From NCBI GenBank assembly GCA_903928015.1, contig CAIYPF010000103.1, positions 76,602 through 140,601 on the forward strand: a stretch of DNA of 64,000 nt, written 5' to 3'. This document shows positions 7,188 to 59,045 of this stretch, one piece after another. This DNA comes from an uncultured Gammaproteobacteria bacterium (lineage in GTDB: Bacteria; Pseudomonadota; Gammaproteobacteria; Pseudomonadales; UBA5518). A program made the position numbers and the translations under genes. The first letter of the stretch is position 1; each line of letters opens with the position of its first letter. The notes beneath the pieces were generated by a model that was not told the origin of the DNA, did not search any database, and worked only from the letters and a program-made list of their open reading frames with translations.

Positions 7188-10100
7188 GTGGAAGACCGGA
7201 TCGTCATCGAGGGCGCGCGTCAGAACAACCTGCGCAACCTCACCCTGGAACTGCCACTCGGGCAACTTACGGTCATCACCGGTGTGAGTGGCTCGGGTAA
7301 ATCCTCGCTCGCCTTCGATACCGTCTATGCCGAGGGGCAGCGCCGTTACGTCGAGACCTTCTCACCCTACGCGCGCCAGTTTCTGGAGCGGATGGACAAG
7401 CCCCAGGTCGACGCGATACGAGGCATTCCGCCTGCCATTGCCATCGATCAGACCAACCCGGTGCGCACCTCGCGCTCCACGGTCGGGACGATGACGGAGT
7501 TGAACGACTACCTGAAGCTGCTTTTTGCGCGTGCTGCGGTGCTTCACTGCCGCGGATGTGGGCAGCTTGTCCGGCACGACAGCGCTGAGACGGCTTCTCT
7601 GGCTTTGCTCTCGGATCCGGCGCTTGCCGGCGAAGCGGCTGAAGTGTGCTTCCACGTCGACCCACTGCCCGGCATCGACGCCAGCGCGATGGTCGGTATC
7701 CTTTCGGCGCAGGGCTACACCCGCGTGACGCCGGAGGGCGAACGCCTGCTGGTGGTCCAGGACCGCCTGCGGATCACCCCGGAAAACCGCTCGCGTCTGC
7801 AGGAGAGCCTCGAGGCCGCGTTCCGTGTAGGGCGGGGCAGGTTGTGCCTCCGTTTCGGGCGCAGCGAACCCAAGCCGGAGCGGCGGTTCTCTGCAGGTCT
7901 TCATTGCGCGTCCTGTGACATCGCTTATGCGGATGTGACGCCCAACAGTTTCTCCTTCAACTCGCCGGTGGGCGCCTGCGAAACCTGTCGTGGTTTCGGT
8001 CGCACCATCGGGATCGATTACAGCCTCGTGGTTCCCGATCCCAGCCGCACACTGTCGCAGGGCGCCGTGAAGCCATGGCAAACCCAGAGCTTCAACGAGT
8101 GCCAGAAAGAACTTGAGAAGTATGGCCGCAAGCGCGGCGTCCGCCTCGACGTCCCGTGGTCGGCGCTGCGCGAGGACGAGCGTGCCTGGGTGATAGACGG
8201 CGAAGGCGAGATCGACAGCGGCAAGTGGTACGGGGCCCGTCGCTTCTTCGAGTGGCTCGAGAGCAAGAGCTACAAGATGCACCTGCGTGTGCTGCTGTCG
8301 AAGTACCGCAGCTACGACGACTGTCGCGCCTGCAACGGTGCGCGCCTGAAGCCCGATGCCCTGCTGTGGCACCTGCCCGGGGCTCTGCAGTCCCTGAATT
8401 TCCCCGAACTGGTACAGCTTCCCATCCTGCGTGCACGCGAGTTCGTGGCCGGGTTGCGTCTCGGGCAGGCGATGGACGAGGCCACCACCCTTGTTTTGGC
8501 CGACATCCGTTCACGGCTTGGCTATCTCGTCGACGTGGGGCTCGGTTATCTCTCGCTTGACCGTCAGTCGCGCACGCTCTCGGGTGGCGAGGTGCAGCGC
8601 ATCAACCTCACGACGGCGCTGGGCACCTCGCTTGTGAACACGCTCTTCGTGCTCGACGAGCCGAGCATCGGCCTGCATCCGCGTGACGTGGGCCGTGTGA
8701 TCGGCGTTCTGGAGCGCCTGCGCGACGCCGGCAACACACTGCTCGTGGTGGAACACGACCCGCAATTCATGTTCGCCGCCGATCGCCTGCTCGACATGGG
8801 GCCTGGTCCGGGCAAGGCGGGCGGCCGGATTGTGTACGAGGGGGCGCCGGCAGGCGTGCTGGCCGTTGAGAACTCCCTTACGGCGGACTACCTGAGCGGG
8901 CGCAGAGTCGTGCAACGGAGCATGGCGCGCGCTGTACGCCCTGAGGGCCCCTGGCTCGAGATCGACGGCGCGGCCGAACACAACCTGAAGCAAATCGATG
9001 TCCGATTCCCGCTGGGACATCTGGTGTGTGTGACCGGCATCAGCGGTTCCGGAAAATCCACACTGGTTGGAGACGTTTTGTACGGCGCTGTAGCCCAGGC
9101 GCTCGGCAAGACCGGCCTGAGCGTTGGCAAGCACGCAGCCCTGCGAGGGGCCTCCGATCTCACCGACGTTGTCCTCGTTGACCAGGCCCCGATCGGCAAG
9201 AGCGCACGCTCCAATCCCGTCAGCTACGTTGGCGCGTGGGGGCCGATCCGAGAGCTGTTCGCACGCACACCGGTGTCGAAGGAGCGCGGTTACACGGCAG
9301 GCACATTCAGCTTCAATTCGGGGGACGGGCGTTGTCCGGCATGCACAGGCAGCGGCTTCGAGCATGTCGAGATGCAGTTCCTGAGCGATGTCTACCTGCG
9401 CTGCACCGAGTGCGACGGCAAGCGCTTCCGTGCCGAGGTGCTGGAATCCCGGCTCGCGGGCGGCGAGTCCATTGCCGATGTGCTGGCGCTCACCGTAGCC
9501 GAGGCAATCGAGCGCTTCGAGGGCGAATACACCGTGCTGGAGGCGCTGCAGCCGCTGCGTGACGTGGGGCTTGAATACCTCGCCCTCGGTCAGCCGGTGC
9601 CCACCCTGTCCGGCGGCGAAGCGCAGCGGCTGAAGCTCGCCGGGCATCTCGCCGAGGCGGGCTCGCGAAAGTCACGGGGCGCACGCACCCTGTTCGTGTT
9701 TGACGAGCCCACCACCGGCCTGCACTTCGAGGACATCGCACGCCTGCTTGGCGCTTTCGACAAACTGATCGCAGCGGGGCATTCGCTTCTCGTTATCGAG
9801 CACAACCTCGATGTCATCGAGGCCTGCGACTGGTTGGTCGACCTGGGCCCCGAAGGTGGCGAGGCAGGTGGAGAACTGCTGTTCAGCGGCACGCCGCAAG
9901 ACATTCTTGGGTGCGAGGCCAGTCATACGGGTACGGCATTGCGCGAGTACCGCCTGCAGCGCGAGTCCATCGCCGAGGCCCCGCCGCAACTGAGGTCTGC
10001 GCCAGTGCTGCGCGGTCCCCCGCGGATCGAGATACAGCGTGCCCGCGAGCACAACCTGAAAGACATCGACATCAGCATTCCGCGTGATGCTCTGACGGTC

Positions 10101-19705: not shown

Positions 19706-21013
19706 ATGTCCAGATTGAGCCCCAAGCCCCTCGCTCTTGCCATCGCGCTGGTTGTCGCCCCCGCTATTGCGCCGCTCACGGGCCATGCGCTGCCGTTGGC
19801 GGGGCTCGTCGCCTTCGCCGCGGATCTCGACGATGACAACGACGGCATCGCCGATGCGGCCGACAGGGACGATGACAACGACGGCGTCCTCGATCGCGTG
19901 GACACGGACGACGACAACGACGGCACTCTCGACGCCCGGGACCGCGACGACGACAACGACGGCATCGTGGATCGCCTCGACCGCCAGGACAACGACGGCG
20001 ACAACGACGGCATCACCGACGCGCAAGACGACGATGACGACAATGACGGCAGTCTGGACAGCGTCGACACCGATGACGACAACGACGGCATCGCGGACGA
20101 CCAGGACAGCGACGACAACGATGACGACAACGACGGCATCGCCGACAGCGAGGACAGCGACAGCGACAACGATGGCATTCCCGACGCACAGGACGGGGAT
20201 GACAACGGCAACGACCTCTCTGATGTGAGCGATGCCTCCGACGCGCTGGATGACGACGGCGACGGTATTCGCGACGCACTCGACCGCGACGACGACAACG
20301 ACGGAGTTCCCGACCGCCTCGATCAGGACGACGACAACGACGGAATCCGTGACCGAGCGGACCGCGACGACGACAACGACTCCATTCCCGACGAAAGCGA
20401 TTCCGACGACGACAACGACGGCCTGGGTGACGCCTGCGATACGCCCAAGGCCGACGACGACCAGGACGGCATCCCCGACTGCAGCGATGCAGACGACGAC
20501 GGCGACGGCCTGGACGACGTGGTCGACACGGATGACGACAACGACCAGATTCCGGACATTCGCGACCGCAGCGACTTTGACGACGACCGGGACGGCCGCA
20601 GTGACAGCCTTGATTCGGACGACGACAACGATGGCATCGCCGACAGCGCCGATTCCGACGACGACAACGATGGCATAGACGACAGCATCGACACGGATGA
20701 CGACAACGACGGCATTGTCGACGTGAACGACACCGACGACGACAACGATCAGCTCGGCGATGACTCCGAGGACAACTCCTGCAACGACAAGGACGAAGAC
20801 GGGGTGGACGACTCCGTGGACGCGGACCGGGACAACGACGCGGTGTCGGACAAGGATGACAACGACAGCGACAACGATGGTTCGGATGACGCCGCTGACA
20901 CGGACGATGACAACGACGGCGTTTCGAACGACATCGACACCGACGATGATGACGATGGCACGGATGATTCAGTCGACGATGACAACTCCTGCGGCAGCAG
21001 CGGCCACGGCTGA
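19706..21013 (+). CDS. Secreted, extremely acidic protein of thrombospondin type 3-like calcium-binding repeats
   Basis: A protein of 435 residues. A signal peptide (about residues 1-28) is followed by some 390 residues made almost entirely of ~13-residue Asp-rich repeats of the form DDDNDGIxDxxD. By my count DDDNDG occurs exactly 14 times, with many near copies. This D-x-D-x-D-G pattern is the Ca2+-binding loop of thrombospondin type 3 (TT3/OmpA-linker-like) repeats. Four Cys are spread along the chain (CDTPK..DCSD, SCND, SCGS). There is no OmpA, LPXTG, PEP-CTERM or membrane anchor after the repeats; the chain just ends GSSGHG. I infer a calcium-binding extracellular or periplasmic protein. 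GGAG precedes the ATG. Confidence 0.8.
   Translation: MSRLSPKPLALAIALVVAPAIAPLTGHALPLAGLVAFAADLDDDNDGIADAADRDDDNDGVLDRVDTDDDNDGTLDARDRDDDNDGIVDRLDRQDNDGDNDGITDAQDDDDDNDGSLDSVDTDDDNDGIADDQDSDDNDDDNDGIADSEDSDSDNDGIPDAQDGDDNGNDLSDVSDASDALDDDGDGIRDALDRDDDNDGVPDRLDQDDDNDGIRDRADRDDDNDSIPDESDSDDDNDGLGDACDTPKADDDQDGIPDCSDADDDGDGLDDVVDTDDDNDQIPDIRDRSDFDDDRDGRSDSLDSDDDNDGIADSADSDDDNDGIDDSIDTDDDNDGIVDVNDTDDDNDQLGDDSEDNSCNDKDEDGVDDSVDADRDNDAVSDKDDNDSDNDGSDDAADTDDDNDGVSNDIDTDDDDDGTDDSVDDDNSCGSSGHG
19823..20982 (+). repeat. Tandem coding repeats for DDDNDG units
   Basis: Imperfect repeats of about 39 bases, rich in GACGACGACAACGACGGC-like units, encode the calcium-binding motifs. The codons vary (GAC/GAT), so selection appears to act on the protein; recombination within the array could change its length. 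Confidence 0.75.
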
Positions 21014-45060: not shown

Positions 45061-46170
45061 ATGCCCTTCGTGATCGGCGACCCGGCACCATTATTTGCGG
45101 CGCCTACTCACACCACGCATCCCTTCCAGTTCGGCGCGGCCGCAGGTCGACTCGTGATTGTGAGCTTCATGGGGCAAGCCCGGCATCCCGATCACTCGTC
45201 CTTGCACACTGAACTTGCGCGTCTGCGCACGGTGTTTGACGACGAGCGTTTCTGTTTCTTCGGCGTCTCGATGGATCCGGCCGATTTCGCGCCGGGGGGG
45301 CTGGTCGAGGACCTGCCGGGGATCCGTTGGTTCAACGACGCCTCGGGCGAGGTGAGCCGGCTGTACGGAGCGCTGCGGGAGACCGACGCACAGGCTTCCG
45401 ACTACCAGCCCTTCAGTTTGTTGCTGGACCAGCGTCTGCGCGTGTTGGCGCAACTCCCGTTGCGTGATGGCGGCCTCGAGAACCACCTGGCCCGGTTGCT
45501 CTCTGCAGGACTTGCCTTGCCTGCCTTCGATGCTGCGGCGCCTGCAGCGCGACAGGCCCCGGCGTTGATGGTGCCTCGCGTATTCGAGCCGGGTTTCTGC
45601 GCGCAACTCGTGCGCTATTACCGCGGCGCAGGGGCGGAGGATTCCGGCTTCATGCGGGACCAGGACGGAAAGACCGTCGGTGTCTACGACTACACCACCA
45701 AGCGCCGCCTCGACTGCGGCATAGACGACGAGGCCTTGCGCAGGCAGTGCATGCTGCGCATCCATCGCAGGCTGGTGCCCGAGATAAAGCGTGCATTCCA
45801 GTTCGATGTGACGCGGATGGAGCGCTATATCGTCGCCTGCTACGAGGGCGAGCACGGCGGACACTTTCGCGCCCACCGTGACAACACGACCAAGGCCACC
45901 GCTCACCGCCGCTTTGCCGTGTCGATCAACCTGAACGAAGACTACGAGGGCGGGGAACTCTGGTTTCCGGAGTACGGGCGACAGCTGTTCAAGCCCGGCG
46001 CGGGTGAGGCAGTCGTTTTCTCATGCTCGATGCTCCACGAGGCCACACCGGTGCGCAGCGGCTCGCGCTTCGTGTTCCTGCCCTTTCTTTACGATGATGC
46101 CGCTGCGGCCCAGAGGCAGCAAACGGAGCAGTTCCTCGGCGGGAACATCAATTCGCCGCCCGGAACCTAG
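45061..46170 (+). CDS. Peroxiredoxin-like domain fused to a 2-oxoglutarate/Fe(II) oxygenase
   Basis: A protein of 369 residues. Residues 1-150 have the AhpC/TSA thioredoxin fold (GDPAPLFAAPTHTTHPFQFG, then FCFFGVSMDP and FSLLLDQRLRVLAQL), but the expected active-site PxxxC stretch reads FMGQARHPDHSS, with no peroxidatic Cys. Residues ~165-369 form a prolyl-4-hydroxylase-like oxygenase with Fe ligands H271, D273 (HFRAHRD) and H326 (SMLHEATPV), and the 2-oxoglutarate Arg at 336. The second domain should be active; the first is probably a binding or scaffolding unit. The stop is shared with the Rieske gene through CTAG. Confidence 0.85.
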   Translation: MPFVIGDPAPLFAAPTHTTHPFQFGAAAGRLVIVSFMGQARHPDHSSLHTELARLRTVFDDERFCFFGVSMDPADFAPGGLVEDLPGIRWFNDASGEVSRLYGALRETDAQASDYQPFSLLLDQRLRVLAQLPLRDGGLENHLARLLSAGLALPAFDAAAPAARQAPALMVPRVFEPGFCAQLVRYYRGAGAEDSGFMRDQDGKTVGVYDYTTKRRLDCGIDDEALRRQCMLRIHRRLVPEIKRAFQFDVTRMERYIVACYEGEHGGHFRAHRDNTTKATAHRRFAVSINLNEDYEGGELWFPEYGRQLFKPGAGEAVVFSCSMLHEATPVRSGSRFVFLPFLYDDAAAAQRQQTEQFLGGNINSPPGT

Positions 46171-47435
46171 TCCGCAGCGGGCAGAGCGCTGCCAGCCAGC
46201 ACGTCCAGATACCACTTGATGAAGCGGATCTCGATGTACTCGAAGTCGGGCTGCAGATGGCCTGGCTCGTAGAAGCGCGAATTAACGCCGGCGCTGTTGC
46301 GGGAAATGATGTATTCGTCTTCGAGGGTGGTGGTGTGCCAGAGCCAGGTCAGGTTATCGAGTGCGTAGTCTCGTCCTTCCACCGCGTCCCCGCGCACAAA
46401 CCAGACTACTTCCATATCGGAGCGTGCGAGCCCGCGGGGCGTGAAGCGGTAAAGCACGCAGTGATCGGGATAGTTCAGCATGAAGGCCAGCGGACCGATC
46501 TGGAAATCGCCGGCGCCGCCGTCGTAGCCGCTGAAGGCTCCCATGAGGGGGGCAACGGGTTTGCCGTCGCGGCTCGCCGTCTGATAGCCGTCGAAAAGCG
46601 CGTAACGGTTGTTCCAGGTGCTGCAGCCGAAGGCAACCTCCTGGTCGTAACAGCCATCGAACGTGGAGGTCACACCCTCGACTCCGGTCATGCGCTGCGC
46701 GCGCTCCCAGAGCGCTGCGCGCAAGGGCGCGATGTTGCTGCTGATGTCCTTGATGGAGTGCGAACGGGCATAACTGCGGTGCGATGTCGCGCAGTGGTAG
46801 CACTCGAGATAGTTCTCCAGGGCCAGTTTCCAGTTCGCGCCGACGGGATACACCTCGCGGTGCGCCACCTTCGCGCTTTCGAGACGATAAGGCGCGAGCG
46901 CGGGCTCTATACGGTCAAGGGCCATGGAAAAGTCTGCCGCATCGGGATCGGCGTTGATGAAGATCAGGCCGTGCCGCGTGACAAGCCTGATGCTGCGCAG
47001 CCCCGAACTGCCGGCGCAGAAGGAAGCTTCGCGCTCCATGTGGCGCGCGCCGCGCAGACTCCCGTCCAGGCCATAGACCCAGCCGTGGTAGGGGCACACG
47101 AAAGTCTTGCGGCTACCTGAGGCCTCTTCACAGACGCGTGCGCCGCGGTGGCGGCAGCTGTTCACCAACGCGTGGATGCTGCCGTCTTCCGCACGGCTGA
47201 TGATGAAGGCGTCTTCGTCGATCTCGTACTGGAAGAAATCCCCGGGCTCGGGGATCTGGCTGACGTGTCCTGCGTACAGCCAGCTGCGGTAGATGATCTG
47301 CGAGAGGTCGGCCTCGTAGGCAACGGCCGAGCGATAGAAGTATCCCGGCAAGGCGTGCGCGGGACGCTGTTGGGCCTCGCGCGCAACGGCGCGCAGGCGC
47401 TCCGGGCCGTCGGTGTCTGTCGCAAGCAGTCTCAT
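46167..47435 (-). CDS. Rieske non-heme iron oxygenase, alpha subunit (GbcA/choline monooxygenase-like group)
   Basis: A protein of 422 residues. The Rieske cluster ligands are C94, H96, C114 and H117 (CRHRGARVC and CPYHGW). The catalytic iron site is ENYLECYHCATSH with H214 and H219, and Glu at the bridging position where many dioxygenases have Asp. That Glu and the overall length fit the group acting on quaternary amines and related small molecules (GbcA, choline monooxygenase, stachydrine demethylase) at least as well as aromatic dioxygenases. No ferredoxin or reductase gene is adjacent. It follows the aldehyde dehydrogenase gene by 22 bases on the same strand. Confidence 0.88.
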   Translation of the reverse strand: MRLLATDTDGPERLRAVAREAQQRPAHALPGYFYRSAVAYEADLSQIIYRSWLYAGHVSQIPEPGDFFQYEIDEDAFIISRAEDGSIHALVNSCRHRGARVCEEASGSRKTFVCPYHGWVYGLDGSLRGARHMEREASFCAGSSGLRSIRLVTRHGLIFINADPDAADFSMALDRIEPALAPYRLESAKVAHREVYPVGANWKLALENYLECYHCATSHRSYARSHSIKDISSNIAPLRAALWERAQRMTGVEGVTSTFDGCYDQEVAFGCSTWNNRYALFDGYQTASRDGKPVAPLMGAFSGYDGGAGDFQIGPLAFMLNYPDHCVLYRFTPRGLARSDMEVVWFVRGDAVEGRDYALDNLTWLWHTTTLEDEYIISRNSAGVNSRFYEPGHLQPDFEYIEIRFIKWYLDVLAGSALPAAD

Positions 47436-47457: not shown

Positions 47458-48975
47458 TCAGAGCCTGATCCACGCCGATTTCTCCTGCATGTACGCGCGG
47501 ACGCTGTCGATGCAGTTGTCCTTGGAGTTGCCCGACTGCTTGAAACCGCCGAAGGGTTGGGTCATGTCGCTCTCGTCGAAGGTGTTCACCCAGACCACGC
47601 CGGCCTGTATGGCGCGCACACAGCGAACTGCGGTGGAGAGATCGCGCGTCCAGACACTCGCGGCAAGCCCGTAGATGGTGTCGTTGGCGATCTCGAGCGC
47701 CTCATCGACGCTGTCGAAGGGAATGAGGCTCGCGACCGGCCCGAAAATCTCCTCTCTCGCGATGCTCATGTCCGGACGCACGCTGGTGAACAGCGTCGGG
47801 TTCACATAGGCGCCGGAGGCAAGGCTTGCGGGTGCATCGCCGCCCATCTCGAGGCAGGCACCTTCGCGCACGCCGGCCTCGACCATGCCGAGCACGCGGC
47901 GCTGGGAGTGGTGGTCGACCAAGGGCCCCATGGAGGTCGCAGGATCGAGGGGGTCGCCCGGCACGAAGGCCTCGGCCGCGCGTGCCTTGAAGCGCGCAAC
48001 GAACTCCTCGTGGATGCTGCGGGCAACCAGCAGGCGCGAACCCGCGTTGCATACCTCGCCCTGGTTGCCGTAGATGCCGCGGAAGGCGGCTTCGACGGCG
48101 CGGTCAAGATCCGGAAGATCGTCCAGGAAGATCTGGGGGGATTTCCCGCCGCACTCCAGCGCGACTTTCTTCATGTTCGACTGGCCCGAATAGACGAGCA
48201 TCAACTTGCCCACCTGCGTGGAGCCGGTAAAGCTCACCTTGTCCACGTCGGTGTGCAGTGCGAGTGCACGACCGGCAATCTCGCCGATCCCGTTCAGTAC
48301 GTTCAGTACGCCCGCCGGGCCACCGGCCTCCACAAAAAGCTGTGCGAGGCGCAGGCAGCTGAGGGGAGCCTGCTCGGCCGGCTTGAGCACCACCGAGTTG
48401 CCCGCCGCGAGCGCGGGGGCGATCTTCCAGGTGGCCATCAGCATCGGGTAGTTCCAGGGCGAGATGGCGCCCACCACGCCGAGCGGCTCACGCAGGATCA
48501 TGTGCAGCGCGGACGGGTCCGTGCTCGTCACCCGCCCGTCAATTTTGTCGATGCATTCGGCGCAGAAGCGGATGAAGCCGGCCACGCTCGGGAGGTCGCC
48601 GGCAACCACATCGCGGATGGGCTTGCCCATGTCCAGCGTCTCGAGGACGCAGAGCTCTGGCGCGTTGGCTTCGATCAGTTCGGCCCAGCGATACATCACG
48701 GCCATGCGATCACGGGGCGCGAGTCCTGCCCAGGCGCCCGCACGGAAGGAGCGGCGCGCGGCCTGCACGGCGCGATCAACGTCGGACGGGGAGGCGGCAG
48801 TGACCTCGGCGATCACCTCACCGGTGGCGGGATTCACCGTCTCGATGCGTCGTCCCTCGGGGCTCGCGCGGAACTCGCCGTCGATGAACAGGCGGGAATC
48901 CAGGCCACGCAGGACCTCCGCGCCTGTGCGTTTCCAGTCCTCGAGGGTGAAGGCTGCGGCGGTGCTAAGGCTCAT
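47458..48975 (-). CDS. Aldehyde dehydrogenase, PuuC-like
   Basis: A protein of 505 residues of the ALDH superfamily. The catalytic Cys is in GNQGEVCNAGSR, the general-base Glu in ALECGGKSPQIF, and the NAD-binding segment is ISPWNYPMLMATWKIAPALAAGNS. The N-terminus (WKRTGAEVLRGLDSRLFIDGEF) and C-terminus (PFGGFKQSGNSKDNCIDSVRAYMQEKSAWI) are closest in pattern to E. coli PuuC, which oxidises gamma-glutamyl-gamma-aminobutyraldehyde in putrescine breakdown. GGAGG lies upstream of the ATG at 48975. It is first in an operon with the Rieske oxygenase and divergent from the BetI-like regulator. Confidence 0.92.
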   Translation of the reverse strand: MSLSTAAAFTLEDWKRTGAEVLRGLDSRLFIDGEFRASPEGRRIETVNPATGEVIAEVTAASPSDVDRAVQAARRSFRAGAWAGLAPRDRMAVMYRWAELIEANAPELCVLETLDMGKPIRDVVAGDLPSVAGFIRFCAECIDKIDGRVTSTDPSALHMILREPLGVVGAISPWNYPMLMATWKIAPALAAGNSVVLKPAEQAPLSCLRLAQLFVEAGGPAGVLNVLNGIGEIAGRALALHTDVDKVSFTGSTQVGKLMLVYSGQSNMKKVALECGGKSPQIFLDDLPDLDRAVEAAFRGIYGNQGEVCNAGSRLLVARSIHEEFVARFKARAAEAFVPGDPLDPATSMGPLVDHHSQRRVLGMVEAGVREGACLEMGGDAPASLASGAYVNPTLFTSVRPDMSIAREEIFGPVASLIPFDSVDEALEIANDTIYGLAASVWTRDLSTAVRCVRAIQAGVVWVNTFDESDMTQPFGGFKQSGNSKDNCIDSVRAYMQEKSAWIRL

Positions 48976-49051
48976 GGGGTGTTTCCTCCGGCGATAAAAA
49001 ACGGACGTGGCGAAGAATACTGTTTGGCGGTGCCGCAAGCTGCGTTAAATT

Positions 49052-49070
49052 GCCGCGATAAGACCGCGGC
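49052..49070. promoter_or_regulatory. Candidate operator between the aldehyde dehydrogenase and the BetI-GNAT gene
   Basis: Inverted repeat GCCGCG (49052-49057), 7-base spacer, CGCGGC (49065-49070) in the 126-base divergent gap. A TetR-family regulator starts 32 bases downstream, so this is a reasonable self-operator site, but short GC palindromes arise by chance in GC-rich DNA. Confidence 0.3.
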
Positions 49071-49101
49071 GGCATGCGCTCCGGCACCCGGAGCACACAG
49101 C

Positions 49102-50214
49102 ATGAATCAGGCAAAGGACGGCGTGAAGTCCCAGCAGGAGCGGCGCCGAATGCTGGTCGAGGCCACCATGACGGCGATCGCCGAGCGGGGTTTCAGCAAC
49201 CTGACTCTCGCGCACATCGCCGGCATCGCCGGGCTGAGTGCCGGCATCGTGAACTTCTATTTCAGTACCAAGGAGGCGCTGCTCCTCGAGACCCTCAAGA
49301 CCGTCGCAGAGGAGTTCGAGCACACGGTAAACGCGGCCGTGGACGCCGTGGGTGCCGATCCTGCAGCACAGCTGCAGGCCATTCTGCTCGCGTCGCTGGA
49401 GCCGACGATTACGGAGCCGCGAAAGGTCGCAGTCTGGTATGCCTTCAGTGCCGAAGCGGGAGCCCGACAGGATTACCAGGAAATCTGCGGGCAGCGAGAC
49501 CAGACCTATTACGCGCGCATCCAGTTGCTGTGTGATGCGATCGTGCGCAAGGCCGTGCCTGGCGTGCGTGTGAGCAGCAGCGCCATCGCCCACGCGGTGT
49601 CAGGGCTGATCGAGGAGTTCTGGCAATCCATCCTGTTCGCGGGCACTGGCTTCGACCGGGTGGCCGCACGCGGTCAGTGCCTCGCGTTCCTCGCCAGCGT
49701 TTTTCCCTGGGCCTACGATTTCCCCGCACATCTGCCTGGCTCCGTATCAGCCGATGGGGCCTCGAGCCACTCGATGCGTGCCGCAGTCGCTGCAGACTTG
49801 CCCCAACTCGCCCGGCTTTTTGATCTGTACCGTCAGTTCTATCGCAATCCGGCCGATGCCTCCGCGGCGCGGGATTTCCTCGCCGAACGGCTGGACTCCG
49901 GAGACTCGGTGATCTTCGTGGCAGAGGACAGCGACGGACGGCTGCTTGGCTTCACGCAGCTCTACCCCGCGATTTGTTCTGTGGCGATGCGCCGTTACTG
50001 GATCCTCTACGACCTGTACGTCGACAGCAGCGCGCGCCGCGCGGGCGTTGGGCGAAGCCTCATGGAACGTGCACGCAGCTTTGCCGTTGAGACCCGCGCC
50101 GCGCGTATCGATCTCGAGACTGCGTCAGACAACCTGCCTGCGCAGCGGCTCTACAAGGATCTGGGCTACGTGCGGGAACAGCACTTCCTGAAGTTTTCGC
50201 TGGACCTGAGCTGA
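49102..50214 (+). CDS. BetI-like TetR regulator fused to a GNAT acetyltransferase
   Basis: A protein of 370 residues. Residues 1-65 are a TetR DNA-binding domain (RRRMLVEATMTAIAERG, then LTLAHIAGIAGLSAGIVNFYFSTKEALL), most like BetI, and residues ~70-200 fit the BetI C-terminal ligand domain (AVWYAFSAEAGARQDYQEIC). Residues ~224-370 are a separate GNAT domain: SMRAAVAADLPQLARLFDLYRQFY, LYDLYVDSSARRAGVGRSLMERA (acetyl-CoA motif A) and ETASDNLPAQRLYKDLGYVRE. The two parts are in one frame with no internal stop. I infer a ligand-controlled repressor of the flanking catabolic genes that may also acetylate the ligand or a protein. The frame is open upstream but antisense to the aldehyde dehydrogenase. 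Confidence 0.85.
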   Translation: MNQAKDGVKSQQERRRMLVEATMTAIAERGFSNLTLAHIAGIAGLSAGIVNFYFSTKEALLLETLKTVAEEFEHTVNAAVDAVGADPAAQLQAILLASLEPTITEPRKVAVWYAFSAEAGARQDYQEICGQRDQTYYARIQLLCDAIVRKAVPGVRVSSSAIAHAVSGLIEEFWQSILFAGTGFDRVAARGQCLAFLASVFPWAYDFPAHLPGSVSADGASSHSMRAAVAADLPQLARLFDLYRQFYRNPADASAARDFLAERLDSGDSVIFVAEDSDGRLLGFTQLYPAICSVAMRRYWILYDLYVDSSARRAGVGRSLMERARSFAVETRAARIDLETASDNLPAQRLYKDLGYVREQHFLKFSLDLS

Positions 50215-50558: not shown

Positions 50559-51764
50559 TCAGAACCGCGGCGCTGGCGTCTGGCGTCTGCGAGGGGGATC
50601 GAACACAGGCGTTTCCATCACCTTGGCCCTTGCCATCACGCGGGTCCACTTGAGCTCGCGCATGTAATAAATTTCTGCCCAAAGCTCCTCGCCTGGCCGA
50701 CCATACGGCATGTCCAGCGAGGCCATGGCCACGTTGGACTTGGCAGTCGGGCACCACACTGCGGATGTGACGGTTCCAACCACCTTGCGCTGGCCGGCGC
50801 CGAAGATGAACGAGTTGGTCGCGGGTTTGTTGCCCTCGACATCCAGTTTCACGAAACGATAGCGCGAGCCTGACGCACGCTCGGCCAAGAGGGCGCGCCT
50901 CCCGGTGAACTGTCCTTTGTCGAAGTCCACCAGCCAGTCGAGCCCCAACTCGAAGGGAGACCTGCTGCGACCGTGCCGGACACCCTGCTCGGCAGGCACG
51001 AAATCGGCTCCTGCCATGATGAAACCCGCTTCGATCCGCGCGATGTTCAGCGCGGCGGAGCCGATGGGCTTGATCAGGAAGTGCTCGCCGGCCGCGAACA
51101 GCGCGTCCCAGAGGGGCAGGGCGAGCGCGGTGCTGGTCCAGATCTCATAGCCCAGATCGCCGGTGAACCCGGTGCGAGACACCATCAGTTCACCGTCGTG
51201 GAAGGGGAAGCTGCGCAGCTCGAAGGGCTTCAGGGTTTCGATTCCCGAAAGGCCCATCGCCCGCAATGTTGAACAGGACGTCGGGCCCTGCACCGCAAGC
51301 GCTGCGACGGATGCGGTCTCGTCGGTGATGCGCACGTCATAGCCCAGCGCGGACCAGTGCAGCCAGTCGAGGCAACGCTCCTGCGAGCACAGACGCCAGA
51401 GGTCGGGCCCGGTGTGGAAGAGCGTGCCGTCGTCCTGCACCTGCCCCGCGTCGTCACACCACACCCCATAACCGACGCGACCTTCGCGGATTTTGCGAAC
51501 ATCACGGGTGAACAGGCGGTTCAGGAAGGCCTCGGAATCCGGGCCCTCGATGCGGTACTTGGTCATCGGCGAGATGTCGAAGACAGCCGTGGCGTTGCGG
51601 ATGGCGAAGTACTCGAACTCGATCTGGTCGAGTCGCTCCGCCGAGACATAGCCCTTCCAGTTGTACCAGGACTGCAAGCCGTTGGCCGCAGCGATGCGCG
51701 GATGGAAGGGGGTCTCGAGCATCGCCCTCGGATCGTGCGCGGGGCGCGTGGCGAGCGTGTTCAT
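50559..51764 (-). CDS. GcvT-family tetrahydrofolate-dependent aminomethyltransferase / demethylase
   Basis: A protein of 401 residues with the GcvT fold. FAIRNATAVFDISPMTKYRIEGPDSEAFLNRLFTRDV is the family N-domain; the Asp expected at the folate site lies in VQDDGTLF; the motifs TGDLGYEIW and ALNIARIEAGFIMAG follow. It is longer than glycine-cleavage T protein and has no gcvH or gcvP neighbours, so it is a paralogue such as a DMSP-, dimethylglycine- or methoxyarene-type demethylase passing a methyl to THF. It is the last gene of a three-gene operon, coupled to the flavoenzyme upstream (ATGA), which suggests N- or O-demethylation of a compound oxidised by those enzymes. Confidence 0.85.
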   Translation of the reverse strand: MNTLATRPAHDPRAMLETPFHPRIAAANGLQSWYNWKGYVSAERLDQIEFEYFAIRNATAVFDISPMTKYRIEGPDSEAFLNRLFTRDVRKIREGRVGYGVWCDDAGQVQDDGTLFHTGPDLWRLCSQERCLDWLHWSALGYDVRITDETASVAALAVQGPTSCSTLRAMGLSGIETLKPFELRSFPFHDGELMVSRTGFTGDLGYEIWTSTALALPLWDALFAAGEHFLIKPIGSAALNIARIEAGFIMAGADFVPAEQGVRHGRSRSPFELGLDWLVDFDKGQFTGRRALLAERASGSRYRFVKLDVEGNKPATNSFIFGAGQRKVVGTVTSAVWCPTAKSNVAMASLDMPYGRPGEELWAEIYYMRELKWTRVMARAKVMETPVFDPPRRRQTPAPRF

Positions 51765-53329
51765 GCCGATGCCCTCTTGCGAATGATCTCCTGTGCGCAA
51801 TTGCGACCTGCAAGGCCCATAACCCCGCCCCCGGGGTGTGCTCCTGCGCCGCAGAGCCAGAGCCCGTCGATGGGCATGGCGTATTGGGAGAAGAGCACCA
51901 CGGGGCGCATCATCAGCAGCTGGTCGACGGATATCTCTCCGTGATGCCAGTGACCGCCGTGTATCCCGAATTCGGACTGGATGTCGGGCGCGACGCAGAG
52001 TTCACTGCTGCTCACGAGGCTGCCGATGCCCGGCATGACGGTCTCGAGACGCGCCATGATCCGCGCCTCGAACTCCGCCCGTGCAGCGGCCGTCCAGCCA
52101 CCTTCCAGGTCTACCGGCGCGTATTGCACCACGGCCGAGATCACGTGTTTGCCGGGCGGTGCCAGCGAAGGATCGTGGAGGGTGGGGATGCAGAGCTCGA
52201 TCACCGGCTCGGCCGAGAACTGACGGTACTTCGAGGGATTCATTGCCTCATCCAAGCCCTCCAGCGAGGGGCAGAGGACAAGCCTGTCGCCTGCGTTTGC
52301 CGCATCAAGACCCGGTATGGACGGCAAAGCATCAAGCGCGAGGTGCAGCTTCGCAGCCATGCCGCGCATGCGTATGCCTTCGACGCGACGCACAAAGCCC
52401 GCGTCGAGTTCGCGGTAGCCCACAAGGCCCTTCAGCGTCGTGCGGGGATCGGCATTTGATATCACGGTGGAGGCATTCAGCACTTCGCCCGAATCGAGCA
52501 CTACGCCGGTGGCTCGGCCCTCATGGACCACAATGCTCGCAACCCCTGCTTGGAGCCGTATCTCGGCGCCCCGGGCAGTGGCTGCCGCAGCGAGTGCATC
52601 GGCGAAGGCCCCCATGCCGCCCACAGGGATTGAAGGCCCTGCATGCCCGAAAGCATCCGCCGTGCGCCGGTAGAGATAGCTCATGACGGTATTGGGCGCG
52701 CGGGGTCCCATCGATGTGCCAAGAACGGCATCGAAGGCCACCGCGCTGCGCAAACGCGCATCCTCGAAGCGCTCGCTGGCGAGGTCGTGGATGTTCATGA
52801 GGCCGATGCGCAGCACCTCGCGCATACGGTCACGACCCAGAGTGCGTATATCCCAGCCGAGCTTCAGCAGGCCCAGGCGATCGCGCCAGTCGCTGTCGAC
52901 CAGACGGGGAGGGCGCCTGCCGAAGGCACCCGCCAGCACGGCTGCGTAGGAAGCGATTTCGGCGTGGAATTCGGCAAATGCCTGCTGGTCCACTGCGCCA
53001 AGGTCGGTCGCTGCTGCCTTGGCGCCGTCCAGCCGCAGGTGCCGCCCATCGGCCTGCAGGGCAACGGTCGCAAGGCCTTTTGCGGCGAAGCGCAGACCGT
53101 GCTTCGCCAGTTGCAGTTCCTCGATGAGCGAAACGGGGAACTGGTTCAGGAAGTGCGCACCGGAGGAAACGGAATAACCCGGCGCGAACGTCCGGGTGCG
53201 TGCAGCGCCACCCGGACGGTCGGCGCGCTCGAGAACCACTACACGCCTGCCGGCTTTTGCCAGCGTGGCCGCGCACACGAGCCCGTTGTGACCGGCTCCG
53301 ATGATGATGACGTCATGTGTATCAGTCAT
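51761..53329 (-). CDS. CrtI/amine-oxidase-fold FAD oxidoreductase (second of a tandem pair)
   Basis: A protein of 522 residues. The FAD motif DVIIIGAGHNGLVCAATLAKAG with ERADRPGGAARTRTF is at the N-terminus, GGMGAFADALAAAA in the middle, and the family C-terminal loop GLWLCGAGAHPGGGVMGLAGRN at the end. The family includes phytoene desaturases and retinol-saturase-like proteins, but bacterial genomes hold many members unrelated to carotenoids. It overlaps the first flavoenzyme gene by 8 bases and the GcvT gene by 4, so these three are tightly coupled. The start is ATG at 53329, not the in-frame ATG at 53350. Confidence 0.85.
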   Translation of the reverse strand: MTDTHDVIIIGAGHNGLVCAATLAKAGRRVVVLERADRPGGAARTRTFAPGYSVSSGAHFLNQFPVSLIEELQLAKHGLRFAAKGLATVALQADGRHLRLDGAKAAATDLGAVDQQAFAEFHAEIASYAAVLAGAFGRRPPRLVDSDWRDRLGLLKLGWDIRTLGRDRMREVLRIGLMNIHDLASERFEDARLRSAVAFDAVLGTSMGPRAPNTVMSYLYRRTADAFGHAGPSIPVGGMGAFADALAAAATARGAEIRLQAGVASIVVHEGRATGVVLDSGEVLNASTVISNADPRTTLKGLVGYRELDAGFVRRVEGIRMRGMAAKLHLALDALPSIPGLDAANAGDRLVLCPSLEGLDEAMNPSKYRQFSAEPVIELCIPTLHDPSLAPPGKHVISAVVQYAPVDLEGGWTAAARAEFEARIMARLETVMPGIGSLVSSSELCVAPDIQSEFGIHGGHWHHGEISVDQLLMMRPVVLFSQYAMPIDGLWLCGAGAHPGGGVMGLAGRNCAQEIIRKRASA

Positions 53330-54947
53330 CGGAGTAGCTCCCCGGAACAAGCGCCGGTCGGCGAAGATCGCTCAGGATCTCGCGGGCACAGTTGGCGCCT
53401 GGCGCGGCCATCACGCCTCCGCCCGGATGGCTGCCCGATCCGCAGAGGTACATCCCTTTCACCGGCCCACGGTACTGGGCGTAGCCCGGGAAGGGGCGGT
53501 TGAAGAGCAATTGGTCGAAGGTGAGTTCGCCCATGAAGATGTTGCCCTCCGTCAGGCCTACTTCGTTCTCTATCTCGCGGGGCGTGCGGACTTCCATGTG
53601 CAGGATCAGATTCTTGAAGTCCGGACTGTGACGGCTGATCTGGTCGACCACGGTCTTGCCGAAAGCATCCCGGTCCGCGTCGGTCCATTCGCCGGTCGAG
53701 AGTTCGGGAGGGCAGTACTGCACGAAGACCGTCATCATGTGTTTGCCGGGCGGCGCCATGGTGGGATCGACCTGCGTCGGGATCAGCATGTCGATGTACG
53801 GGTCGCGGGACCAGCGCTTTGCTTTCCAGTCGTCGTAGGCCCGCTCCATGCGTTCAAGCGAATCGATGCAATGCATATCTCCCTTCATCAGGGGGCTTCT
53901 CTGGTCGAGGCCCGTGAAGTGCGGAAGCCCGTCGAGCGCGATGTTCAGCTTTCCTGAGGAGCCCCGGATCTTGAAGTTCCTGGCCGCCTGAACGAGCTTC
54001 GGCGGCAGGTCCTCGGCAGCCATGATCTTGGTGAAGGTCCGCCGCGGATCGAGGCTCGACACGACCAGCGGTGCGTGGACTTCGTCGCCGTTCTCGAGCG
54101 CGACACCCTGGGTCTGGCCGTTTTTGACGATGACGCGTGACACTCCCGCGTCCACTCGCACTTCGCCGCCGAAAGAGAACAACGCGCTCTGCAGCGCACC
54201 GGATACCGCGCCCATGCCGCCACGCGCAAAGCCCCAGGCGCCGATCGAGCCGTCGACATCGCCCATGTAGTGGTGCAGGAGCACATAGGCCGTGCCGGGT
54301 GAGTACACCCCGAGCGCGGTACCGATGATGGCCGAGCCCGCCATGTGGGTCTTCAGGACGTCGGTCTCGAAGTACCCGTCGAGGAAGTCGCCGATGCTGG
54401 CAGTCCAGAAGCGCAGAGCATCAGCAAAGCCTTCTTCGCCCAATTCGGCAAAGGCTTTGCCGAAGCGCGCGAGTTCGCGCAATTGGCTCGGATGCAGGGA
54501 GGTCGGGTCGGGCGGGGTGCGCATCAGGAAGGGGCGGATGAGGCGGGTCTGCTTCATCACATCCGTCGAGAAGCGCTCGTAGGCATTTGCGTCGCGCTTG
54601 GAGTGGCGGCACATCTCCCGGTACTGCTGCTCGTGATCGGAGTAGTTGCCGAAGTAATCGCCGTCGCGGGTGAACGTGACTCCGCCTCCATACGGGATGA
54701 CCTGCAATCCATGGCGCGGAAGCTCGAGGTCGCGTGTGATCTCGGGTCGCAGCAGACTGCACACATAAGAGCAGTTGGAGTAGGTCCAACCCGAGTGGAG
54801 TTCGCGTGAGACGGTAGCGCCTCCGATGTAGGGGTTGCGTTCAAGGACAACGGTGCGCAACCCGGACTTCGCCAGATACGCTGCCGTGGTGAGTCCGTTG
54901 TGTCCTGCGCCGATGACGATCGCGTCGTACTGGTTTGTACTGCCCAA
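53322..54947 (-). CDS. CrtI/amine-oxidase-fold FAD oxidoreductase (first of a tandem pair)
   Basis: A protein of 541 residues with AIVIGAGHNGLTTAAYLAKSG and ERNPYIGGATVSRE at the N-terminus, GGMGAVSGALQSAL in the middle and GMYLCGSGSHPGGGVMAAPGANCA at the end. It aligns in layout with the next gene but is clearly diverged, so the two are old paralogues with probably different or heteromeric roles. The start is TTG at 54947 with AGGA upstream; no closer ATG fits the FAD motif. It is divergent from the PotD-type gene, with 167 bases between them that should hold both promoters. Confidence 0.85.
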   Translation of the reverse strand: MGSTNQYDAIVIGAGHNGLTTAAYLAKSGLRTVVLERNPYIGGATVSRELHSGWTYSNCSYVCSLLRPEITRDLELPRHGLQVIPYGGGVTFTRDGDYFGNYSDHEQQYREMCRHSKRDANAYERFSTDVMKQTRLIRPFLMRTPPDPTSLHPSQLRELARFGKAFAELGEEGFADALRFWTASIGDFLDGYFETDVLKTHMAGSAIIGTALGVYSPGTAYVLLHHYMGDVDGSIGAWGFARGGMGAVSGALQSALFSFGGEVRVDAGVSRVIVKNGQTQGVALENGDEVHAPLVVSSLDPRRTFTKIMAAEDLPPKLVQAARNFKIRGSSGKLNIALDGLPHFTGLDQRSPLMKGDMHCIDSLERMERAYDDWKAKRWSRDPYIDMLIPTQVDPTMAPPGKHMMTVFVQYCPPELSTGEWTDADRDAFGKTVVDQISRHSPDFKNLILHMEVRTPREIENEVGLTEGNIFMGELTFDQLLFNRPFPGYAQYRGPVKGMYLCGSGSHPGGGVMAAPGANCAREILSDLRRPALVPGSYSDD

Positions 54948-55114
54948 GCCTGTGTCCTCTGACGCTGGAAGTGGCCCGAATCGAAGCCGGGCGCGATGCT
55001 GCCACGCGGCAAGCGACTGCGTCCATCCCCCAATGCAGTTGCGAGCGTGCTGTGCTACGGTTCCTTCAAAGCGAGCCCCTGACGAGTCATTACATTGCTT
55101 CCAGAGTCCTGCGC

Positions 55115-56236
55115 GTGATCATTCGCAGAGCCATCTTTTTGCGCGGTTTTGCGGCGCTTTTGCTGTTGTGCGTCACACGTCTCGATGCGCGCGCCGACGA
55201 AGCCCCCGTGCTGAACATATACAACTGGGTTGACTACATCGGCGTTGGCACGGTGCGGCGTTTCGAGAAGGAAACGGGCATCAAGGTCAACTACGACATG
55301 TACGACAGCAGCGAACTCGTAGACACCAAGCTCATGGCGGGATCCAGCGGCTACGACGTGGTGTTCCATTCTGCCCAGTACAGTGCGCGCCTCATTCCGG
55401 CGGGCATATTGAAACCCCTCGACAAGCGTCTTCTTCCGAACCTCGCTGATCTGGACCCCGCGATCCTGAAGGTTTTCGAGCACTACGATCCCGGTCTGCG
55501 CTACGGCGTCCCCTACACATGGGGCACCACGGGTTTCACCTACAACGTGCGCAAGATCCGCGAGCGTATGCCCGATGCCCCCCTGGACAGTGCGGGACTC
55601 GTGCTGCGACCTGAGGTGGTGTCGCGCTTCGCGGATTGCGGTGTCACGCTGCTTGATTCGGCCACCGATGTATTGCCGATGGCGCTTGCGTATCTCGGGC
55701 GCAACCCCGATTCCGTGGATGACAGAGACCTGCGCGATGCCGAGGCACTGCTTCTGAAAATCCGCCCCTATGTGCGCTATTTCAGCAGCCAGCGCATGTT
55801 GATAGACCTTCCCTCGGAGGAGGTCTGCATCGCCATGAGCTGGTCGGGGGATTACTCGGTGGCCCGCGCCAGAGCAAAAGACGCAGGTCTGGATGTAGAC
55901 CTCGCCTTCACCATGCCCCGCGAAGGACTGCCCGGCTGGTTCGATGCCGTCTACATACCGTCAGACTCGCCCCACCCCCTTAACGCGCACCGGTTCCTGA
56001 ATTACCTTCTGCGGCCCGATGTGATAGCCGAGGTAAGCAACACCGTGCGTTATGCCAACGCAAGCCGCGTCGCAAAACCCCTCGTTCTGGAGGAACTGCG
56101 CAATGATCCGGCCATTTATCCGGACGCGTCCGTGATGTTGCGGATGAGCACACCGATGGTGCTGGCGCCCAAGACAGAGCGCCTTCGCTCGAGGGCATGG
56201 TCGAGGGTCAAGTACGGCATGGCGAGAGAGGACTGA
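55115..56236 (+). CDS. PotD/PotF-type substrate-binding protein
   Basis: A protein of 373 residues with a signal peptide (about 1-27, ending near DARA) and the polyamine-binding-protein pattern: APVLNIYNWVDYIGVGTVRRFEKETGIKVNYDMYDSSELVDTKLMAGSSGYDVVF, also GVPYTWGTTGFTYN and a WFDAVYIP hinge. The mature start strand and the YDVVFHSAQY segment match PotF. PotD/F proteins bind putrescine, spermidine or related cations; members of this family also bind opines and other amines, so substrate is not fixed. Start GTG at 55115 is chosen for the signal peptide; the frame is open upstream. Confidence 0.9.
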   Translation: MIIRRAIFLRGFAALLLLCVTRLDARADEAPVLNIYNWVDYIGVGTVRRFEKETGIKVNYDMYDSSELVDTKLMAGSSGYDVVFHSAQYSARLIPAGILKPLDKRLLPNLADLDPAILKVFEHYDPGLRYGVPYTWGTTGFTYNVRKIRERMPDAPLDSAGLVLRPEVVSRFADCGVTLLDSATDVLPMALAYLGRNPDSVDDRDLRDAEALLLKIRPYVRYFSSQRMLIDLPSEEVCIAMSWSGDYSVARARAKDAGLDVDLAFTMPREGLPGWFDAVYIPSDSPHPLNAHRFLNYLLRPDVIAEVSNTVRYANASRVAKPLVLEELRNDPAIYPDASVMLRMSTPMVLAPKTERLRSRAWSRVKYGMARED

Positions 56237-56239
56237 TCG

Positions 56240-57343
56240 ATGCCAAGCGGCGTTCCCGTTATCCGGACTGAAGGACTCTGCAAATCATTCGCCGGCCAGC
56301 CCGCGGTGAACGGTGTGTCCTTCGGCGTCGAAGCCGCGGAAGTCTTCGTGATACTCGGGGGCTCCGGCTGCGGCAAAACCACGCTTCTCAGGATGCTGGC
56401 CGGTTTCGAGACGCCTGATGCCGGCGCGATCTATCTCGACGGGGTGGACATCACGCACATGCCGCCCTACGAGCGACCGGTGAACATGATGTTCCAGTCC
56501 TACGCCTTGTTTCCGCACATGAGCGTTGCGGACAACGTGGCGTACGGGCTTCGCAAGGAAGGTGTTCCGCGTGCCGAGTTGCGGGCACGCATCAAGGAGA
56601 TGCTCGAACTGGTGCAACTCTCCGGCTTCGATGCTCGCAAACCCGATCAGCTCTCCGGTGGCCAGCGCCAGAGGGTGGCGCTCGCGCGTGCGCTGGTCAA
56701 ACGTCCGCGCGTCCTCCTGCTCGATGAACCGCTTGCGGCGCTCGACAAGAAGCTCCGGGAGCAGACGCAGTTCGAACTGATGAACCTCCAGGACCGGCTC
56801 GGCACCAGCTTCGTGGTGGTCACCCACGATCAGGAAGAGGCCATGACGCTGGCCTCACGCATTGCCGTCATGGACAAGGGACGCTTCCTGCAGGTTGCGT
56901 CGCCACAGGAAATCTACGAGTACCCGTGCAGCCGCTTCGTGGCCGAGTTCGTTGGCACTGCCAATATCTTCGGCGGCCATGTGTCGGGTGTATCCGATCA
57001 GGTGGTGTCTCTCACGGCGGATTCGATCGCCTCGCCGCTGCTCGGCGCGCTTCACAGCGGCGTTGCGGCAGGGGATCAGGCCTGGCTCGCGGTGCGTCCG
57101 GAAAAAATCCAGTTGGGCAAGGAAGCGCCGGAGGCGCAAGCAGGGCGCTGCGTGCTTACAGGGGTAGTCCAGGATCTTGCCTATTACGGTGGGCGCTCGG
57201 TGTACCGGGTTCGGCTGGATGGTGGCCATACCGTGCTCGTAAGCGCCCAGAACCGCCTTCGCTCCCCGACCCGCAAGCTCGAATGGGATGAGTCCGTGTA
57301 CCTGTTTTGGGAGGCGCAGGCGGGAGTCGTGCTCACCCAATGA
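56240..57343 (+). CDS. PotA/PotG-type ABC transporter ATPase
   Basis: A protein of 367 residues. Walker A is GGSGCGKTT, the Q-loop is in NMMFQSYALFPHM, the signature is LSGGQRQRVALARAL, Walker B is RVLLLDEPLAALD and the switch His is in VVTHDQEEAM. The C-terminal ~130 residues are a TOBE regulatory domain (WLAVRPEKIQLG, then VVQDLAYYGGRSVYRV). It powers import through the two permeases downstream. It starts 3 bases after the binding-protein gene and its stop overlaps the first permease (ATGA). Confidence 0.95.
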   Translation: MPSGVPVIRTEGLCKSFAGQPAVNGVSFGVEAAEVFVILGGSGCGKTTLLRMLAGFETPDAGAIYLDGVDITHMPPYERPVNMMFQSYALFPHMSVADNVAYGLRKEGVPRAELRARIKEMLELVQLSGFDARKPDQLSGGQRQRVALARALVKRPRVLLLDEPLAALDKKLREQTQFELMNLQDRLGTSFVVVTHDQEEAMTLASRIAVMDKGRFLQVASPQEIYEYPCSRFVAEFVGTANIFGGHVSGVSDQVVSLTADSIASPLLGALHSGVAAGDQAWLAVRPEKIQLGKEAPEAQAGRCVLTGVVQDLAYYGGRSVYRVRLDGGHTVLVSAQNRLRSPTRKLEWDESVYLFWEAQAGVVLTQ

Positions 57344-58230
57344 ACAGCCTGCGCCGTTCAGCTGCCTTGGCCGGTTTCCGGCTTGTCATCGCGGGAATTC
57401 CGATTCTCTGGTTGGGTCTTTTTTTTCTCGCGCCCTTCCTGCTGGTGTTCCGGACCAGCTTCGCCGATCCCGTCATCGCCCAGCCGCCATTCACTCCGCT
57501 CTTCGATGCGGCGGGTGGCATTCACGCCACCCTCGACAATTACACGCTGCTGCTGAACGACTCGCTATTCCTGTCGAGCTATCTGGGCTCGGTGCGGATC
57601 GCCGCGATATCGACCTTGCTGTGCCTCATCGCCGGATATCCGATGGCTTACGCCATCGCGCGCAGCCCACAGCCCTGGCGCACCTTGCTGCTGCTCCTGG
57701 TGATACTGCCTTTCTGGTCTTCGTTTCTGCTCCGGATCTACGCGTGGATGGGACTGCTCGGCACGCATGGCGTGATCAATTCGCTGCTGCTTGATCTCGG
57801 GCTCATCCAGCGGCCGCTCGCCCTGATGTACAACGACGCCGCGGTCTATCTGGGCATCGTGTACACGTACCTGCCGTTCATGGTGCTCCCTTTGTATGCA
57901 GTCCTCGAGAAGCACGAGATCGCGCTGCGCGAGGCTGCGCTGGATCTGGGGGCGCGGCCGCTGCGCGTTTTCACCGACATCACGTTGCCGTTGTCGATGC
58001 CGGGCGTTGTTGCCGGCTCGATGCTCGTGTTCATCCCCGCCATCGGCGAGTTCGTGATCCCCGCGTTGCTCGGCGGGCTCGATACCCGGATGATCGGTCG
58101 CGCCTTGTTCGACGAGTTCTTCATCAACCGCGATTGGCCGCTGGCCGCAGCTGTGGCAACGGTGCTCCTGCTGGTGATTGTCCTGCCGCTCATGGTGTTC
58201 CAGCGCGGGCAGGCGAGGGCGCATCCGTGA
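57340..58230 (+). CDS. PotB/PotH-type ABC transporter permease
   Basis: A protein of 296 residues with six predicted helices. The EAA loop that docks the ATPase is EIALREAALDLGARPLRVFTDITLPLSMPG. ILPFWSSFLLRIYAWMGLLG is characteristic of PotB/PotH. It forms the inner-membrane channel with the next gene, whose GTG start overlaps this stop by 4 bases. Confidence 0.94.
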   Translation: MNSLRRSAALAGFRLVIAGIPILWLGLFFLAPFLLVFRTSFADPVIAQPPFTPLFDAAGGIHATLDNYTLLLNDSLFLSSYLGSVRIAAISTLLCLIAGYPMAYAIARSPQPWRTLLLLLVILPFWSSFLLRIYAWMGLLGTHGVINSLLLDLGLIQRPLALMYNDAAVYLGIVYTYLPFMVLPLYAVLEKHEIALREAALDLGARPLRVFTDITLPLSMPGVVAGSMLVFIPAIGEFVIPALLGGLDTRMIGRALFDEFFINRDWPLAAAVATVLLLVIVLPLMVFQRGQARAHP

Positions 58231-59045
58231 AGGGCCGCTCGCTCGCCATCTACAGCTGGCTTGCCTTCGGGTATGCGTTTTTCTATGTGCCGATCGTTCT
58301 GCTGGTCGTCAACTCCTTCAACGCCTCGCGCATCGGTTCGCACTGGGGCGGGTTTTCGTTGCACTGGTATCAGCAATTGCTCGACGACCCGCAAATCCTT
58401 GCCGCAGCCTGGCTCAGCCTGCGGGTAGCTTTCATCAGTGCGTGTGGCGCCACGCTCATTGGTGGTTGCGCGGGGCTTGCCCTTGGGCGATTCGGCGTCT
58501 TCCGGGGCCGCATGGCGTTGACTGGCATGGTCGCAGCACCCCTCGTGATGCCGGAGATCATCACCGGGCTGTCGCTCCTTTTGCTGTTCGTGGCGCTCAA
58601 GTCGCTCACCGGCTGGCCCGAGTCCCGTGGCTTCACCACCATCACCATCGCCCACATCACCTTCTGCATGTCGTATGTGGCCGTGGTTGTGCAGGCCCGT
58701 GTCGCAACGCTGGACTTTTCACTGGAGGAGGCCGCCATGGATCTGGGCGGGAGGCCATTCCGGGTATTACTGGACATCACGCTGCCGGGCATTGCGCCGG
58801 CACTGCTCTCGGGATGGTTGTTGTCCTTCACGCTCTCGCTGGACGATCTGGTGATCTCGAGTTTCGTGAGCGGACCGGGTGCGAACACGCTGCCAATGCT
58901 GATCTTCTCGAAAGTGAAGCTGGGCGTCACTCCCGACATAAACGCTCTCGCCTCGATCATCATCGCCGTGGTGACGGCGGGGGTGGTTATCGCAGGCGTC
59001 TTGATGCTGAGGGCAGAGCGGAAACGGGTGGCCCAGAGGCCGTGA
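58227..59045 (+). CDS. PotC/PotI-type ABC transporter permease
   Basis: A protein of 272 residues with six helices. The EAA loop is LEEAAMDLGGRPFRVLLDITLPGIAPALLSG, followed by FTLSLDDLVISSFVSGPGANTLPMLIFS, which is typical of PotC/PotI. The start is GTG at 58227, coupled to the first permease. It completes a four-gene importer operon of the putrescine/spermidine type. Confidence 0.94.
   Translation: MKGRSLAIYSWLAFGYAFFYVPIVLLVVNSFNASRIGSHWGGFSLHWYQQLLDDPQILAAAWLSLRVAFISACGATLIGGCAGLALGRFGVFRGRMALTGMVAAPLVMPEIITGLSLLLLFVALKSLTGWPESRGFTTITIAHITFCMSYVAVVVQARVATLDFSLEEAAMDLGGRPFRVLLDITLPGIAPALLSGWLLSFTLSLDDLVISSFVSGPGANTLPMLIFSKVKLGVTPDINALASIIIAVVTAGVVIAGVLMLRAERKRVAQRP

Follow-up and report, generated by a model that had tools for sequence, protein, structure and literature searches.

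A conserved fusion of a BetI-related TetR regulator to a Dpa-like GNAT domain, found beside amine genes and within a recurrent clade of TetR-enzyme fusions

Does the long reading frame at 49102-50214 (+) of the window, by which we mean the whole 64,000-nucleotide stretch of DNA analyzed here, encode a single protein that joins a gene regulator to an enzyme, and if so, what might the enzyme do for the regulator? Translation of the frame gave 370 amino acids with no internal stops, and Pfam recognized three domains in the protein, all exceeding their gathering scores. The first is a TetR_N helix-turn-helix DNA-binding domain (PF00440; residues 18-63, 49153-49290, +; 37.9 bits against a cut-off of 24, E 1.5e-9), and the second is a TetR_C_6 domain, the BetI-type ligand and dimerization domain (PF13977; residues 87-201, 49360-49704, +; 41.3 bits against 27, Pfam 2e-10). 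The third, Acetyltransf_1 (residues 237-356, E 1e-16), lies in a GNAT domain that spans residues 222-370 (49765-50211, +) and is of the Dpa/PA4026 type by Pfam, sequence and fold matches. These results bear out the earlier note on this DNA, which had read the frame as a TetR/BetI regulator joined to a complete GNAT acetyltransferase. An AlphaFold2 model of the full protein, made as a monomer from a 62-row alignment, had a mean pLDDT of 93.4; its confidence was lowest in the inter-domain linker (about residues 206-222, 49717-49767, +), where residues 211-220 averaged 57.

Genome searches recovered the in-frame fusion in seven genomes from three families of one order, counting the window's own genome (labeled G000), and the neighboring genes of the island around it are kept in several families. 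The earlier note had considered that a frameshift or an internal start might split the two halves. No frameshift was seen, the halves being joined in frame in G001 (90% identity), G004 (72%), G005 (71%), G129 and G102 (both about 51%) and G240 (about 50%). The codon for residue 225 of the window fusion, at the start of the GNAT domain, is indeed an ATG. In G001 it is TTG, and other relatives lack a start codon at this position; internal initiation of a separate GNAT protein is thus not conserved. Purifying selection acts on both halves in close genome pairs, with dN/dS values of 0.05-0.09 (TetR half) and 0.04-0.08 (GNAT half); for the more distant pair, G000/G004, the values are 0.11 and 0.22, respectively, with synonymous sites close to saturated. 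We therefore rejected a frameshift artefact or internal start, given the seven in-frame fusions, the unconserved start codon and the low dN/dS, and we rejected a pseudogene because dN/dS is well below 1 in both halves. In a search of plasmids, 24 records matched one half only and none spanned 80% of the query.

The regulator half matched TetR structures with Z scores of about 20, including the choline-bound TetR crystal structure 4kwa (Z 20.0), a likeness at the level of the fold only. The label "BetI-like" given earlier stands as a statement of relatedness, carried by the TetR_C_6 domain, and fails as one of identity: both BetI equivalog models scored below their cut-offs (TIGR03384, 96.5 against 201.3 bits; NF001978, 90.9 against 118), and BetI proper was rejected on these scores. 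Judged by its sequence, the TetR half is a relative of BetI and not BetI itself. Within the TetR_C_6 domain, the fusions all share W112, F115, E118, Y125 and W174. BetI, a choline-responsive TetR repressor, belongs to the same TetR_C_6 subfamily; betI often adjoins an aldehyde dehydrogenase gene, and the fusion gene also lies beside one. Unlike BetI, the fusion carries a C-terminal enzyme and has other neighbors.

The GNAT half has as its best solved relatives by sequence PA4026 of Pseudomonas aeruginosa, a probable acetyltransferase (2eui, 1e-27), and Dpa (8a9o, 7e-26), the 1,3-diaminopropane acetyltransferase of Acinetobacter baumannii (8a9n, 8a9o), whose active-site residues are listed in PMC10267138. 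In the fold comparison the modeled half matched Dpa 8a9n with a Z score of 23.8 (1.3 Å over 149 residues, 38% identity), with Foldseek in agreement; PA4026 came second (Z 22.0), and yeast HPA2 was also among the fold matches. Both Dpa and PA4026 are free-standing proteins, the latter deposited without an assigned function, whereas the window version is fused to a TetR regulator. A beta-strand-swapped dimer is a further hallmark of the Dpa type. When Dpa numbering was offset by 7 on the sequence alignment, all ten listed residues carried the right letter, and nine of the ten were identical in the fusion: Y21 (Y243 in the fusion), Y25 (Y247), Y65 (Y288), V71 (V294), D81 (D304), R90 (R313), E116 (E339), F139 (F362) and the catalytic Y128 (Y351, 50152-50154, +). 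The sole change replaces D80, one of an acidic pair, with Y303. Across the seven main fusions Y243, Y247, Y288, D304 and the catalytic Y351 are invariant; the three more distant members show conservative substitutions at V294, R313 and F362. The GNAT acetyl-CoA motif R/Q-x-x-G-x-G/A, the loss of which would have spoken against an enzyme, is intact; its pyrophosphate-loop residues RRAGVG (R312 to G317, 50035-50052, +) align across the fusions. Because the Dpa-type residues are kept in the main fusions, the window GNAT is expected from its sequence to act on a short diamine or polyamine. Free-standing Dpa-like GNATs are common in the order, and two paralogous fusions, G001:C425 and G004:C40, have lost most of the Dpa pocket residues. 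The window's genome also has a second TetR-GNAT paralogue (L062 8420-9457, G000:C145) whose GNAT half is apparently frameshifted, the matches breaking off at query residue 264 and 271, possibly through sequencing error or real decay.

The genes around the fusion hint at the kind of compound that may be involved. Divergent from it lie genes for an aldehyde dehydrogenase (47458-48975, -), whose best NCBIfam scores, PuuC/BADH, are under the cut-offs, and, further on, for a GbcA-like Rieske oxygenase (46167-47435, -; score under the cut-off). On the other side are genes for a GcvT-like aminomethyltransferase resembling the C-terminal part of TMAO demethylase (50559-51764, -) and two FAD oxidoreductases, one CrtO/phytoene-desaturase-like (51761-53329, -) and one assigned to the flavin amine oxidase superfamily through a relative in G937 (53322-54947, -). 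They are followed by a PotF-type transporter operon, with a PotF-like polyamine-binding protein (55106-56236, +) and, assigned by position and by eye, a PotA-like ATPase (56240-57343, +) and PotH-like (57340-58230, +) and PotI-like (58227-59045, +) permeases. In G001, G004 and G005 the fused regulator has kept the island next to it, and other families have a modified version. The genes that accompany relatives include, in G102 and G129, those for agmatinase, PurU and S-(hydroxymethyl)glutathione dehydrogenase; in G240, those for PurU, a class-III aminotransferase, and PotFAHI together with agmatinase; and in G013, G362, G937 and G961, one for a gamma-glutamylputrescine synthetase-like (PuuA-like) synthetase, below the cut-off. 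The common theme is likely to be that a polyamine-like or N-methylated amine is taken up and oxidized. A literature search for the pathway through its gene names found nothing usable, and the island appears to be a conserved and undescribed amine-catabolic island for which the Dpa-like specificity offers a lead to the substrate. Between the flavoenzyme and PotF, G004 has two genes that the window lacks at this place (53322-55106): one for a class-III aminotransferase and one for a second BetI-like TetR, which is unfused.

The divergent promoter region between the fusion and aldehyde dehydrogenase genes (48976-49101) is the candidate operator region. A block in it, AAGAATACTGTTTG at 49013-49026, is conserved in four genomes, exactly in three and with one mismatch in G005. 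The window contains it a single time. With up to 3 mismatches allowed, one match is the mean expected by chance, a count that leaves the exact match and its conservation in orthologues unexplained; judging from the sequence, the block could be an operator or a promoter. An inverted-repeat scan of the promoter region for a palindromic operator gave short repeats only, none common to the orthologues. ATTCAA/TTGAA-rich stretches reminiscent of a BetI-type operator precede the TetR-Rieske genes (see below) in L066, L097 and L098 and do not precede the window gene.

A profile of the TetR half was run on genomes of the order, class and phylum, covering part of the roughly 1,930 genomes drawn when earlier searches are included. 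It revealed regulators that carry a full Rieske oxygenase where the window fusion has a GNAT domain, an addition to what the earlier note had observed. Full-length TetR-Rieske fusions were found in G362, G937, G455 (by Pfam), G961 (a second genome of the genus of G937) and G1105 (from another class), mostly in the same kind of amine island. Alignment of three of them (G362, G937 and G455) showed that the two histidines that bind iron, and the Rieske cluster ligands C-x-H and C-x2-H, have been preserved. G506 and G1149 have only a short Rieske remnant (profile match in G506, E 1.6e-4), and the regulator of G013 (L065 6788-7954, G013:C7) ends in a domain of about 190 amino acids without a Pfam match, which aligns weakly with the Rieske profile (E 0.12), has a faint, non-significant CPxH stretch and is modeled with pLDDT under 50.

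In a tree of 45 TetR domains, 16 regulators with C-terminal additions grouped together with support of 100/98 and with no unfused member, although rarer unfused members may be missed because the sample was gathered with fused queries. The group consists of nine GNAT fusions, four with an intact Rieske oxygenase (G362, G937, G961 and G455), two with a Rieske remnant and that of G013. A Fisher test of the fused state against clade membership ignores shared ancestry and is descriptive only. The window protein is a real, conserved regulator-enzyme fusion within a recurrent TetR-enzyme clade. The position of the GNAT branch (support 80/71), inside the set of Rieske branches, suggests that the Rieske fusion came first and was later replaced by GNAT. 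The TetR-Rieske fusion of G1105 fell outside, among the 28 other regulators. The tree thereby suggests a second origin, which stays unproven because an AU test did not reject a single clade of all 17 fused proteins (p 0.146). MarR-type transcription-factor/GNAT fusions also place a DNA-binding regulator and a GNAT on one chain, the regulator there being of the MarR and not the TetR family. A full-text literature search, judged by title and abstract, found no paper on TetR-GNAT or TetR-Rieske fusions.

Two further kinds of extended regulator were noticed in these searches. The very divergent TetR G240:C23 (L063 8510-9598) has a 150-amino-acid C-terminal extension without a Pfam GNAT match and aligns weakly with the TetR-GNAT query (29% over 7-340); this paralogue was excluded from the 45-domain tree for its long branch. 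BetI-like TetRs from one genus of another class (L070, L111, L112 and L113) share a conserved extension of about 120 amino acids that resembles an extra helix-turn-helix (HTH_3, weak, E 0.01).

How could such a protein work? Sequence and model together show the anatomy of the fusion and an intact Dpa-type active site, and on this basis we tentatively favor an amine-responsive repressor and enzyme in one chain, which would control its own signal by acetylating a diamine or polyamine from the pathway it serves. The BetI-type TetR half would bind the divergent promoter at 48976-49101 until a cationic amine of the island's pathway enters its ligand pocket, whereupon it would release the promoter, and the aldehyde dehydrogenase-Rieske genes and the fusion gene itself would be switched on. 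The Dpa-like GNAT would draw on the same pool and, with acetyl-CoA, acetylate a short diamine or polyamine. This acetylation might lower or convert the signal that the fusion protein reads, giving a threshold or self-resetting switch. The earlier proposal of small-amine acetylation is thereby narrowed to a Dpa-like reaction, with a conserved diamine pocket, in an amine island; that the reaction inactivates an inducer is what we infer. The presence of island genes beside fused regulators in several families counts for this reading, and the Rieske and GcvT-like genes, which indicate N-methylated amines no less than polyamines, count against it. So do the lack of a clear operator palindrome recurring in the promoter, the paralogues with lost pocket residues and the Rieske remnants. 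A broader version, which we regard as possible and hold with more reserve, is that this clade of BetI-type repressors made a pathway enzyme a standard part, a Rieske oxygenase first and then a diamine acetyltransferase, sometimes decayed, so that the inducer is consumed or converted and a threshold and a reset are built in. If the halves are coupled, the protein would represent a natural and compact form of amine sensor that limits itself, and would allow the recruitment of an enzyme domain into a repressor to be tested; the clade as a whole may consist of gene switches that act chemically on the compounds to which they respond.

Alternatively, an ordinary amine repressor and an ordinary polyamine acetyltransferase may have been fused simply as partners of the same regulon, without signal coupling. 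The flexible, low-confidence linker between well-folded domains, the abundance of stand-alone Dpa-like GNATs in the order and the fact that all neighbors are amine genes are what one would expect from such a fusion. Repressors, however, are usually of low abundance, a poor level for a metabolic enzyme, and all 16 of the 16 clade members bear an extra domain of whatever kind, which suggests more than convenience. We consider this explanation somewhat unlikely.

The C-terminal domain could also be mainly a second sensor that alters DNA binding, with turnover secondary; its input would be acetyl-CoA or an amine for GNAT, and the substrate or redox state for Rieske. Since the paralogues with eroded GNAT pockets persist as fusions and G506 and G1149 retain Rieske remnants only, catalysis is not required in every member for the C-terminal part to persist, and retention without the full catalytic residues makes sensing a serious rival, alongside the simple joining of two functions. 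Pure sensing, on the other hand, need not require the catalytic residues that the window protein shares with its six close relatives, nor the cluster and iron ligands that are kept in the Rieske fusions, and as the main role it appears unlikely. The occurrence of Rieske and GNAT versions on related regulators, with both intact and decayed sites, allows catalysis and ligand binding to be compared.

That protein is what the GNAT half acetylates, perhaps at lysines in its own DNA-binding domain or in pathway enzymes, is very improbable. The GNAT superfamily does include protein acetyltransferases, and HPA2 of yeast appeared among the fold matches, but a diamine acetyltransferase is nearest to it in sequence, in fold and in pocket residues, and the earlier idea of protein modification found no support. 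There is next to no probability that an artefact of assembly or annotation, arising from a sequencing error or internal start, made two genes look like one. The ATG at residue 225 in the window's genome is outweighed by the in-frame fusion common to seven genomes from three families, the lack of conservation of that start and purifying selection on both halves.

Two other frames of the window caught the eye. The one at 7188-12629 (+) encodes 1813 amino acids that look by eye like two UvrA-like ATPases in tandem, and the other, at 19706-21013 (+), encodes 435 amino acids of Asp/Asn/Gly-rich DDDNDG repeats that by eye resemble calcium-binding thrombospondin type 3 repeats.
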